Below are positions 7,970 to 11,503 of a stretch of DNA of 64,000 bases, one piece after another. Within the stretch, counting starts at the first letter, position 1. Each line of letters opens with the position of its first letter. The stretch is from Cohaesibacter sp. (GTDB lineage Bacteria > Pseudomonadota > Alphaproteobacteria > Rhizobiales > Cohaesibacteraceae). The DNA lies in the NCBI GenBank assembly GCA_025800145.1, contig JAOXSH010000065.1, positions 1 to 64,000 on the forward strand. The letters run 5' to 3'. The notes beneath the pieces were generated by a model. It did no database searches and was not told the DNA's origin. It worked only from the letters and a program-made list of their open reading frames with translations. Made by a program: the position numbers and the translations under genes.

Positions 7970-9547
7970 TCACGCCAAATCGCTCCAGCTCAAGCCATGG
8001 CGGGATAGGTATTTTTTTAGGCGGTCAGCGTCGTTTTGGCTGGCTTTGGTTTTGCGCGATACGGCAAACAATGTACGGCCTGCGGCGCTGAGTGTTGGGC
8101 TTGTCTGGCAAGTGCGAATGACAAATGCCAGTTGCGCTTTGTCGAATGGATCAATCTCCTCTGCCCGTTTCCCAAGCAAGGCGCGCAACAGCAAATCATC
8201 TTCATCACGATGCGCACCCTGCCATTGCTGGGTTAGGGTCTTAATTTCCTGCTCCACCATGCTTTGTGTAATGCGCGCCCGTGGAGCAAGGGTGCAAAGG
8301 CGCTGGATTGAGGCACCCAAATCCCTAAAATTGCCTGGCCATGGGGTTGCGGGGGATATAGCAAAATCCAGATAAGTCTTTCGCGCATCGGCATTAAAGC
8401 CATAGCGGGTGCCCAGCAATTGCTCGGTCCGACCCAGCTCATAATCCATATTGGGTTCAATATCATCGCGCCGATCAACAAGGGATGGCAAACAGAAGGT
8501 CCAAAGATTGAGCCTTGCATAAAGATCGGGGCGAAACTTGCCCTCTGACACCAATTTGCCGGGATCTTCATTCATGCCTGCAATCAAGTGAAAGCGGCTG
8601 GAAATCTCATAGTCCGAACCCAGTGGCCAAAATTGGCCCGTCTCAACAGCATGCAAGATCATGGCCTGTTCATCCAGCCCCAGCTCGTTGATCTCGTCAA
8701 GAAAGAGAACGCCTCCATCGGCCTCTCGCAGCAGCCCGCGTCGCTCTGAACTGCCCTGCCCCATTGCCCCGCGCCTGTGGCCAAACAGGCTAGAAAGCGC
8801 CCGATCACCACGCAAGGTAGAGCAATTGACATGAACCAAACGCCCCTTGACCCGCCTATTTTGCAGTTTGAGCTGATAAATGCGCTTGGCAAGCTCACTT
8901 TTGCCTGTGCCCGTGGCCCCCAAAAGCAGCATCGGCGCATCGGAATGGATGGAAACCAGCTCTATACGGTCTATCAAGCCATTAAAGGCATCATTCTTGG
9001 TCTCGATACCAGCTTTGAGCAAGGCAGTATGCTCATCACTGACAAGGTCAAAGCGTTGCTGGAGCGCGTTATAGCGCGATAGGTCCAGATCAACGATGGT
9101 GTAATCGCCATCAATATGCGTATCGTCCCGACGGGGCGGCAATGTCTGGATCAATCTGGCTGGAATATGGCGGGATTCAGCAAGCAAAAACCAGCAAATC
9201 TGGGCAACATGAGTGCCAGTGGTCAAATGAATGTGATAATCCTCACGCTCTTCATCAAAGCCATAATTGCGCGAAAAGTCAAAAAGCGCCCCATAAACCT
9301 CCTGAAAATCCCAAGGGTCTTTCAGATTGACCTCTTGCAGCCACACCTCTGTGGCCGGGCTTGCCTCCTCAATGTCGCATTTCACACGCTCTGCCAGCCG
9401 GGACCAACCTTCATCATGGAGCAGCTCAACCCGGTGAACAGGGAAGCTGCCATGCTGGGTAACGGCAACAGAGGGCCGCCAACGGTGCTTTTTGCCTGCA
9501 TCCAGCTGCGTGCCCAAAAAGCCAATAACGACATTCTTTTTCATCAT
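7970..9547 (-). CDS. rtcR: RtcR, sigma54-type activator of RNA repair, with altered GAFTGA loop
   Basis: The 525 residues match RtcR throughout. There is an N-terminal CARF-type sensing domain (VVIGFLGTQLD, HLTTGTHVAQICWFLLAESR, IVDLDLSRYN), then an AAA+ domain with Walker A GATGTGKSELAKRI and Walker B GGVLFLDEINELG, then a C-terminal HTH (SAAGRTLFAVSRKTKASQND). RtcR senses RNA fragments or cyclic-phosphate signals and turns on rtcB with sigma54. The loop that normally reads GAFTGA and contacts sigma54 reads GAMGQG here (HRRGAMGQGSS). I checked this from the DNA. No good ribosome-binding site is visible, and either of the paired ATGs may be the start. It is divergent from rtcB. Confidence 0.95.
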   Translation of the reverse strand: MMKKNVVIGFLGTQLDAGKKHRWRPSVAVTQHGSFPVHRVELLHDEGWSRLAERVKCDIEEASPATEVWLQEVNLKDPWDFQEVYGALFDFSRNYGFDEEREDYHIHLTTGTHVAQICWFLLAESRHIPARLIQTLPPRRDDTHIDGDYTIVDLDLSRYNALQQRFDLVSDEHTALLKAGIETKNDAFNGLIDRIELVSIHSDAPMLLLGATGTGKSELAKRIYQLKLQNRRVKGRLVHVNCSTLRGDRALSSLFGHRRGAMGQGSSERRGLLREADGGVLFLDEINELGLDEQAMILHAVETGQFWPLGSDYEISSRFHLIAGMNEDPGKLVSEGKFRPDLYARLNLWTFCLPSLVDRRDDIEPNMDYELGRTEQLLGTRYGFNADARKTYLDFAISPATPWPGNFRDLGASIQRLCTLAPRARITQSMVEQEIKTLTQQWQGAHRDEDDLLLRALLGKRAEEIDPFDKAQLAFVIRTCQTSPTLSAAGRTLFAVSRKTKASQNDADRLKKYLSRHGLSWSDLA

Positions 9548-9990
9548 ATTATCTAAATCTATAAAATCTTATCTATAAATATAGAATATTAAGGAGACAA
9601 AAAAGTCAAATCTTTAAATTTATCAATATATTCAACCAGATAATGAATTTTCACATTTTCCTTTTTTTCCCCTGCACTGTCAATCAAACTAAGCGCCAAA
9701 TACATCACATTTATGAGTTTACATCCTAGCAGACAGGCGAATGCCAAAGGAGCTTTGTTGCCTATACCAGATGATTTATACCAACGGCATGAAAGATTAC
9801 CCCATATGACCGGATTTTATGCCGTTGGTATTAGAGCATATTTTCCGAAAAGTGTGTGCGATTTTCGAACAAATTATACTTAGAAAAAAGACTGAAGCAT
9901 TTTGAATAACGACGTGTTTATTCAAAATACTCTAGACACGGGCAAGATCATCCAAGCTTCTTCACCCTTGCCACCTGTCTGCAAACACAT
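9548..9990. promoter_or_regulatory. rtcR-rtcB divergent intergenic region
   Basis: This 440-base gap separates divergent rtcR and rtcB and must hold both promoters. The rtcR-proximal 200 bases are AT-rich. I looked on the plus strand for a -24/-12 element (GG, ten bases, GC) and found none with exact spacing; the nearest, GGAGCTTTGTTGC at about 9749, is one base short. The right part is filled by repeat families B and C. Confidence 0.5.
9778..9934. repeat. Family B palindrome joined to family C element
   Basis: ATACCAACGGCAT (9778) and ATGCCGTTGGTAT (to 9831) are perfect 13-bp inverted repeats around CCATATGACCGG. Directly after comes a family-C element, from GAGCATATTTTCCGAAAAGT to TTCAAAATACTCTAG. 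The pair lies in the rtcB leader and may affect its expression. Confidence 0.8.
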
Positions 9991-10005: not shown

Positions 10006-11409
10006 ATGAGCAAGATGGAACCGCAAAAATTAACCAGCGATCTTTTGAAATCCTGGGGGCATGTGCCCGGCGAGGCATTTGGCGCGGCCCTTCGCCATGG
10101 ACAAAAGGCTCTGGAAGAAGGCCAGACATTGCAAGCCGTGCAGGCATTACTCGATCGCTACAAACCAGCCCCCGCTATTGCGTTGGATGCGTTAGGGGCC
10201 AAGGCTTTTCACATCAATATTGATGCTGAAAACAAAGATGAACTTGCAAATCTTGACGCCGTAAAACACCATATGGCCGAGCTGATGCGCACACCCACCA
10301 TTGAAGCGGGCGCGATTATGCCCGATGCATGCCCCGCCGGGCCGCTGGGCACCATTCCCGTTGGCGGTGTTGTGGCTGCACGCAATGCCATCCATCCGGG
10401 TATGCATAGCGCAGATATTTGCTGCTCTGTTATGATGTCTGAGTTTGACGATGCAGACCCCAAAGAGGTGCTGGATAGCGCTCATTTGGCCACTCATTTT
10501 GGGAATGGAGGCCGTGAAAATGGCAAGCGCTTCACCATGCCTTTGGATTTGTATGATCAGTTTCGCGGCAATCTCTTTTTGAGCAATCCAAAAATTTTGC
10601 GCGCCGCGCAAGAGCATTTGGGAACCCAAGGCGATGGCAATCATTTCCTATTTGTCGGTGTATCGCGCAAAACCGGAAAAACAGCCATGGTTACCCACCA
10701 CGGCTCGCGCGGCCCCGGTGCACTGCTCTATAAGGCGGGGATGCAGATGGCAGAGAAGTTTCGCAAAAACCTCTCTCCCCAGACGCTGAAGCAAAATGCA
10801 TGGATTCCCATGGATAGCGAAGAAGGAGACGCCTATTGGCAGGCATTGCAGCTCATTCGTCAATGGACAAAAGTCAATCATAGCGTCATCCATCAAGCAA
10901 CAACAGATGCTCTGGGCGCAACACTAAACCGCCGTTTCTGGAATGAGCATAATTTTGTCTTTGAACGAAATGGCCTCTTTTATCATGGCAAAGGCGCAAC
11001 CCCGGCTTGGGATGCCTATGCCGATGATGCAACAGGCTTGACCCTTATTCCGCTCAATATGGTAGAACCGGTTTTGGTGGTTCGTGGCAAAGACAATGCC
11101 AATGCCCTTGGCTTCTCACCCCATGGTGCAGGGCGCAATTATTCGCGCTCCGAGCATAAGCGCCGCAATGCAACCAAAAATCCAGAGCATTTGTTAGCAG
11201 AAGAAACCAAAGGGCTTGATATCCGCTTTTTTGAAAACAAAATCGATATCTCGGAACTGCCCTCCAGCTACAAAAAAGCATCCCTCGTTGTTGAGCAAAT
11301 CAAAAAATATGACCTTGCCAAGATCGAAGATTATATTGATCCCTATGGATGCATCATGGCTGGATATATCGAACCATTCTGGAAAAAAGCCAAGGATGCA
11401 AAGAAGTGA
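10006..11409 (+). CDS. rtcB: RtcB-family 3'-phosphate RNA ligase
   Basis: This is an RtcB-family enzyme of about 467 residues. It has the metal-site region HPGMHSADICCSV, GDGNHFLFVGVS, HHGSRGPG, and the SPHGAGRNYSR segment holding the histidine that takes GMP. RtcB seals RNA with 2',3'-cyclic phosphate or 3'-phosphate ends to 5'-OH ends using GTP and Mn2+, repairing tRNA or rRNA. The canonical DxGCG metal motif reads DICCS, so the Cys ligand is kept but its surroundings differ. The chain is longer than E. coli RtcB. rtcR is divergent upstream, and no rtcA (cyclase) follows. I prefer ATG 10006 over the track's TTG at 9991; 10015 is another option. Confidence 0.92.
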   Translation: MSKMEPQKLTSDLLKSWGHVPGEAFGAALRHGQKALEEGQTLQAVQALLDRYKPAPAIALDALGAKAFHINIDAENKDELANLDAVKHHMAELMRTPTIEAGAIMPDACPAGPLGTIPVGGVVAARNAIHPGMHSADICCSVMMSEFDDADPKEVLDSAHLATHFGNGGRENGKRFTMPLDLYDQFRGNLFLSNPKILRAAQEHLGTQGDGNHFLFVGVSRKTGKTAMVTHHGSRGPGALLYKAGMQMAEKFRKNLSPQTLKQNAWIPMDSEEGDAYWQALQLIRQWTKVNHSVIHQATTDALGATLNRRFWNEHNFVFERNGLFYHGKGATPAWDAYADDATGLTLIPLNMVEPVLVVRGKDNANALGFSPHGAGRNYSRSEHKRRNATKNPEHLLAEETKGLDIRFFENKIDISELPSSYKKASLVVEQIKKYDLAKIEDYIDPYGCIMAGYIEPFWKKAKDAKK

Positions 11410-11460: not shown

Positions 11461-11503
11461 AGAACATTTTCAATAAACACGTCGTTATTCAAAATGCTCT
11501 AGC
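11461..11503. repeat. Family C repeat end
   Basis: AGAACATTTTCAATAAACAC followed by GTCGTTATTCAAAATGCTCTAG forms an inverted repeat of the family-C end. It lies between convergent rtcB and the DUF2892 gene and could act as a two-way terminator-like hairpin. Confidence 0.65.

Follow-up and report, generated by a model that had tools for sequence, protein, structure and literature searches.

RtcR is treated as an activator that works with sigma-54. In Salmonella, its CARF domain binds tRNA fragments that carry a terminal 2',3'-cyclic phosphate, RtcR then oligomerises, and induction requires RtcA (PMC7790460). In GAFTGA, the sigma-54 loop of enhancer-binding proteins (EBPs), changes at the F and T positions mostly abolish activity (PMC3162934). 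There are nevertheless EBPs without GAFTGA that act at sigma-70 promoters: NtrC of R. capsulatus and of Caulobacter, TyrR, DhaR and HupR (PMC10274813, PMC3162934). For the R. capsulatus NtrC, ATP hydrolysis has been reported to be dispensable (PMC10274813). TyrR, DhaR and VpsR have degenerate loops; they either depend on sigma-70 or are regarded as not depending on sigma-54 (PMC3162934).

The locus described here lies on a contig of Cohaesibacter sp. (JAOXSH010000065.1), of which a stretch of 64,000 nucleotides, the window, was analysed. Its RtcR resembles that of E. coli and Salmonella in the CARF–AAA+–HTH layout, in being divergent from the rtcB operon and in scoring best against RtcR in NCBIfam, beyond the equivalog cut-off; many relatives in its clade also share an rsr gene and a YrlA RNA nearby. 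The clade is unlike the E. coli and Salmonella systems in that it lacks the GAFTGA loop, the -24/-12 promoter and RtcA, its RtcB comes from another lineage, and the N-terminal part of its CARF domain has a short deletion. Set against sigma-54 enhancer-binding activators, the window RtcR has Walker A and B and a host with rpoN, but GAFTGA and a -24/-12 at the target are missing. The lost sigma-54 loop is what it has in common with sigma-70-acting EBP relatives of the R. capsulatus NtrC type. NtrC of R. capsulatus and Caulobacter, and HupR, are likewise EBPs of Alphaproteobacteria in which the sigma-54 loop is gone and sigma-70 is the partner. In these NtrC proteins, however, a receiver domain stands where RtcR has CARF, the targets are different, and the loop is deleted, whereas the loop of the clade RtcR is rewritten. 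HupR also has a receiver domain and not CARF. TyrR, DhaR and VpsR are similar in being EBP relatives with degenerate loops, but they have other sensors and regulons and no tie to RNA repair. A literature search that stopped short of most subscription papers found no paper describing a sigma-54-independent RtcR branch.

The RtcR of the window

The open reading frame is RtcR at the full-length equivalog level (NCBIfam NF038308, 703 bits; cut-off 650), with an N-terminal RtcR-type CARF domain (Pfam PF06956, 249 bits), and it adjoins rtcB in divergent orientation. NCBIfam thus names it an RtcR activator above a curated cut-off. The gene and its parts are as follows.

7970–9547, minus strand: rtcR, CARF–AAA+–HTH, start codon used at 9542–9544 (NF038308 703, PF06956 249, PF00158 135 bits)
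9008–9541, minus strand: CARF domain, RtcR-type (PF06956 match)
8897–8920, minus strand: Walker A, GATGTGKS (GxTGxGK is invariant across the alignment)
8753–8770, minus strand: L1 loop, GAMGQG replacing GAFTGA (gap-free alignment to E. coli RtcR; loop column counts)
8690–8707, minus strand: Walker B, LFLDEI (catalytic Glu present here, gone in 20 clade relatives)

The loop region of the window protein, LFGHRRGAMGQGSSERRG, aligns with that of E. coli RtcR, LFGHVKGAFTGARESREG, with zero gaps. The loop codons are GGG GCA ATG GGG CAG GGC (8753–8770, minus strand), and four of the six residues are substituted relative to E. coli (F>M, T>G, G>Q and A>G). Nothing is missing from Walker A, Walker B, the FRPDLYARL segment or the C-terminal region. 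The sequence-only reading had already claimed both that GAMGQG stands in place of GAFTGA and that the remaining parts are intact; the first is confirmed by the gap-free alignment and the second by finding the CARF domain, Walker A, Walker B and the C-terminal region. The loop is not the product of a sequencing error or a frameshift, since the frame is open and the change is common to relatives. The same genome encodes ten other proteins of the sigma-54-activator type with scores over 160 bits. Seven of these have GAFTGA or GAFSGA, and a simple pattern missed the loop in the other three.

A clade of RtcR without GAFTGA

RtcR sequences came from two sources: a family search of the window's order, positive in 33 of 398 genomes, and a collection of 84,980 species genomes, which was scanned with six aligned relatives and from which 80 loci were retained. 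The earlier reading had proposed aligning homologues to look for loop variants. In the resulting alignment of 111 RtcR, the motif is missing in 59 and GAFTGA is present in 52 (one of these as GSFTGA), counts that describe a sample by likeness and no census, the scan having retained the matches nearest the window protein. The 59 form a single clade with 100% branch support in the tree of the 111, and they stay together, again with 100% support, after the loop columns are removed. The tree implies that GAFTGA was lost once, in the branch of this clade, and a lone mutation in the window RtcR was ruled out by 59 members sharing the loss. Three additional RtcR of the order were read afterwards, two of them variant and one classic.

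The loop itself has diversified. Averaged over its six positions, entropy is 0.02 bits in the classics and 2.08 bits in the clade, and a segment with variability near zero in the former belongs to the most variable stretches of the AAA+ domain in the latter. Variants include GAVGTG, GAGGNG, GAFGAS, QAVAGA, SYLGAA, SFTGQA and NVVGLA, as well as deletions, and a few members have GAFSGA or GAFAGA (L074/L080, L076), nearer the functional motif. A new loop pattern, GxAG[ST]ER, is so common among the Rhodobacterales that some new constraint may exist there. The CARF, Walker A and HTH segments are retained across the clade. The Walker-B Glu is lost in 20 of the 59, by at least three changes on the tree. 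For seven close pairs, dN/dS for rtcR is 0.04–0.10, which rules out a pseudogene. The loop is freed from constraint in the clade, with the rest of the gene under purifying selection.

Sigma-54 in the genomes of the clade

Sigma-54 is missing by PF04552 in 28 of 46 clade genomes, and the same 28 lack it by PF04963; the other 18 keep rpoN. It was found in all four classic control genomes. The window genome has one rpoN (PF04552), as does every genome tested in the sub-branch of the window (L077–L081 and L086 with rpoN present). Because the protein is kept under selection in cells that have no sigma-54, the clade RtcR would need none, and the clade appears to be an RtcR branch independent of it. 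With the loop lost clade-wide and many hosts without sigma-54, the branch must therefore switch genes by another route. For the window protein, with rpoN in its own genome, we infer the same independence from its loop, its promoter region and its kinship. The suggestion made from the sequence alone that this RtcR works without sigma-54 is thereby strengthened, by the clade-wide absence of the motif, the sigma-54-free genomes and the missing -24/-12 box.

A whole alphaproteobacterial branch of RtcR thus seems unable to act as a sigma-54 activator. It offers an example, placed on a tree, of an enhancer-binding protein leaving sigma-54, in graded states: the loop lost with rpoN kept, then rpoN lost too, then the hydrolysis residue lost in sub-branches.

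Promoters and candidate operators

The region between rtcR and rtcB contains the following features.

9548–9567: proximal palindrome ATTTTATAGATTTAGATAAT, adjoining the rtcR start, candidate RtcR operator (motif search)
9568–9587: distal palindrome ATTCTATATTTATAGATAAG, 20 bp from the proximal one (motif search)
9581–9609, minus strand: sigma-70-like rtcR promoter, TTGACT-N17-TTCTAT, read by analogy with L077, L078 and L081, the -10 within the distal palindrome
9621–9633, plus strand: IHF-like site TATCAATATATTC, one mismatch to WATCAANNNNTTR
9778–9931: repeat elements separating the operator region from rtcB (inverted repeats I2 and I3)
10006–11409, plus strand: rtcB, divergent type and divergently oriented from rtcR (PF01139 132 bits; alignment to E. 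coli RtcB)

Promoters of the -24/-12 type were scored toward the divergent rsr/rtcB against TGGCAC-N5-TTGCW, with a maximum of 11. The score is 9–11 in 19 of 21 classic loci; the two below 9 are E. coli, where the region was cut wrongly, and L147, which has the near-consensus TGGCACACTCCTTGAA. Among the 51 clade loci, a score of 9 occurs once, at chance level, the region in question being ~1.3 kb long. The window has none with three or fewer mismatches on the rtcB-facing strand between 9500 and 10020, so the earlier statement that no exact -24/-12 precedes rtcB holds; the sole nearby two-mismatch match (9683–9698) faces away from rtcB. For sigma-70, the clade loci as a group have a promoter-like signal toward rtcR above shuffles (z = 6.2), and its commonest -10 bin is the distal palindrome. 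Toward rsr/rtcB, a sigma-70-type promoter is not above shuffles in the group (z = 0.7). In the window, the highest sigma-70 score belongs to TTGACA-N17-GAAAAT at 9655–9683 and not to the match at 9581–9609.

The motif search on clade loci returned two palindromes beside rtcR, ~20 bp apart, with a signal far stronger than in shuffled controls; most classic loci also match the palindromic motif close to the start of rtcR. The IHF-like WATCAANNNNTTR, allowing up to one mismatch, is found in 35 of 55 clade loci and 27 of 52 classic loci, against ~12% and 7% in shuffles. In most clade loci that have rsr, the spacer from rtcR to rsr is 171–179 bp, and the palindromes lie at a conserved distance of some 130–170 bp from the start of rsr. 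The rtcB of the window starts ~460 bp from rtcR, with the repeats in between.

In the Rhodobacterales loci L089–L120, a CATGnCAAAAC box is conserved ~38 nt before the rsr start; it may be what remains of the -24 element, or else a new promoter element. In the same loci, the rsr ribosome-binding site may be enclosed by a leader hairpin.

RtcB, RtcA and rsr

The RtcB of the window is ~23–25% identical to E. coli RtcB and retains the GNHF, GSRG and HGAGR motifs. Clade loci have RtcB of this type, 57–77% identical to that of the window, and no rtcA at the locus; classic loci have the E. coli-type rtcB, often with rtcA alongside. RtcA (PF01137) was present in all four classic genomes and in none of the 26 clade genomes tested, the window genome (~90% complete) among them. 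Here, then, is an RNA-repair system without RtcA, whose signal and switch are open to testing.

In most clade loci, rsr lies between rtcR and rtcB. The window locus is without it, and a search of the rest of the window genome with one query protein, run without a positive control, gave no match. A short stretch resembling the rsr N-terminus is left before rtcB in L083 and L098, which suggests that rsr was deleted more than once. The locus L147 combines a GAFTGA RtcR with a window-type RtcB (47% identity), rsr and rtcA, and is likely an intermediate between the classic and clade systems.

Mechanism and alternatives

We think it rather probable that this RtcR branch is independent of sigma-54, still binds its old sites and uses another RNA polymerase holoenzyme. 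By analogy, it most likely binds the palindromes, restrains rtcR and activates rsr/rtcB with that other holoenzyme. The CARF domain would still sense the ends of broken RNA. These are most likely 2',3'-cyclic phosphates left by nucleases, because the clade has no RtcA to make them. RtcR would then oligomerise on the tandem palindromes as candidate operators, restraining its own promoter, a sigma-70-type one with its -10 enclosed by the distal palindrome. It would activate rtcB, plus rsr where present, from a distance via the non-sigma-54 holoenzyme, assisted by the IHF-like site in mid-spacer. ATP hydrolysis is probably not a power stroke because several sub-branches have lost the Walker-B glutamate. 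The operator, the IHF-like site and the oligomerisation are predictions from sequence. It is possible, and we suggest it tentatively, that all of this belongs to one transition, in which a CARF-gated AAA+ ring passed from sigma-54 remodeller to RNA-end-sensing enhancer protein, with the old tandem sites, an IHF-like bend and another holoenzyme, not driven by ATP hydrolysis and with no RtcA.

The clade RtcR could instead be a plain ligand-gated repressor on the tandem palindromes, shutting rtcR and rsr/rtcB and released by RNA ends, with no activation step. The palindromes do overlap the -10 and start region of the rtcR promoter, TyrR and the Caulobacter NtrC, both EBPs without GAFTGA, repress sigma-70 promoters (PMC3162934, PMC10274813), and a scaffold role would be consistent with the missing Walker-B Glu. 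However, an IHF-like site lies between the palindromes and the rsr start ~130–170 bp away, with the spacing kept, an arrangement that suits distant action better than blocking, and no constitutive-looking sigma-70 promoter faces rsr/rtcB. We regard simple repression as unlikely, though it is the chief competing explanation, and prefer activation because the palindromes stay at that distance with the spacer length kept.

That the window RtcR is still sigma-54-dependent, thanks to compensation in the loop and to a -24/-12 promoter that escaped recognition, we consider quite improbable. It would fit the rpoN of the window genome and near relatives, the unchanged loop length and the intact Walker A and B. 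But the four altered residues include F and T, whose change mostly abolishes activity (PMC3162934), no -24/-12 within three mismatches faces rtcB, and equally changed loops occur in sister lineages that have no sigma-54. Decay of the clade, with RtcR losing function and rtcB become constitutive, would account for the losses of GAFTGA, RtcA, the Walker-B Glu and, in places, rsr, and for the repeat elements between operators and rtcB in the window. It is very improbable given the dN/dS of 0.04–0.10, the 59 sequences from several families that all retain an open reading frame, and the conservation of the palindromes.

RNA genes and repeats around the loci

At Rfam gathering scores, there is no Y RNA or tRNA between rtcR and rtcB of the window. 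Some clade loci have YrlA (Y RNA-like) RNAs and tRNA genes in the gap between rsr and rtcB (L080:2493–2806, L107:2328–3027, L089:2983–3120 and L096:2897–2970). Downstream of rtcR in L080 (7330–7570) is a cobalamin riboswitch, unrelated to the loop finding.

When up to three mismatches are allowed, the window contains 10 copies of a dispersed repeat, ATACCAACGGCATGAAAGAT, against 0 expected (at 1929, 3069, 7857, 7915, 9778, 20760, 30945, 40131, 43662 and 44616). At 9778–9831 it makes up an inverted repeat between rtcR and rtcB. Related palindromic elements, AGCATTTTGAATAACGACGTGTTTATTCAAAATACT, lie on either side of rtcB at 9896–9931 and 11464–11500, the second of these read by eye, beyond the stretch that the repeat search covered.
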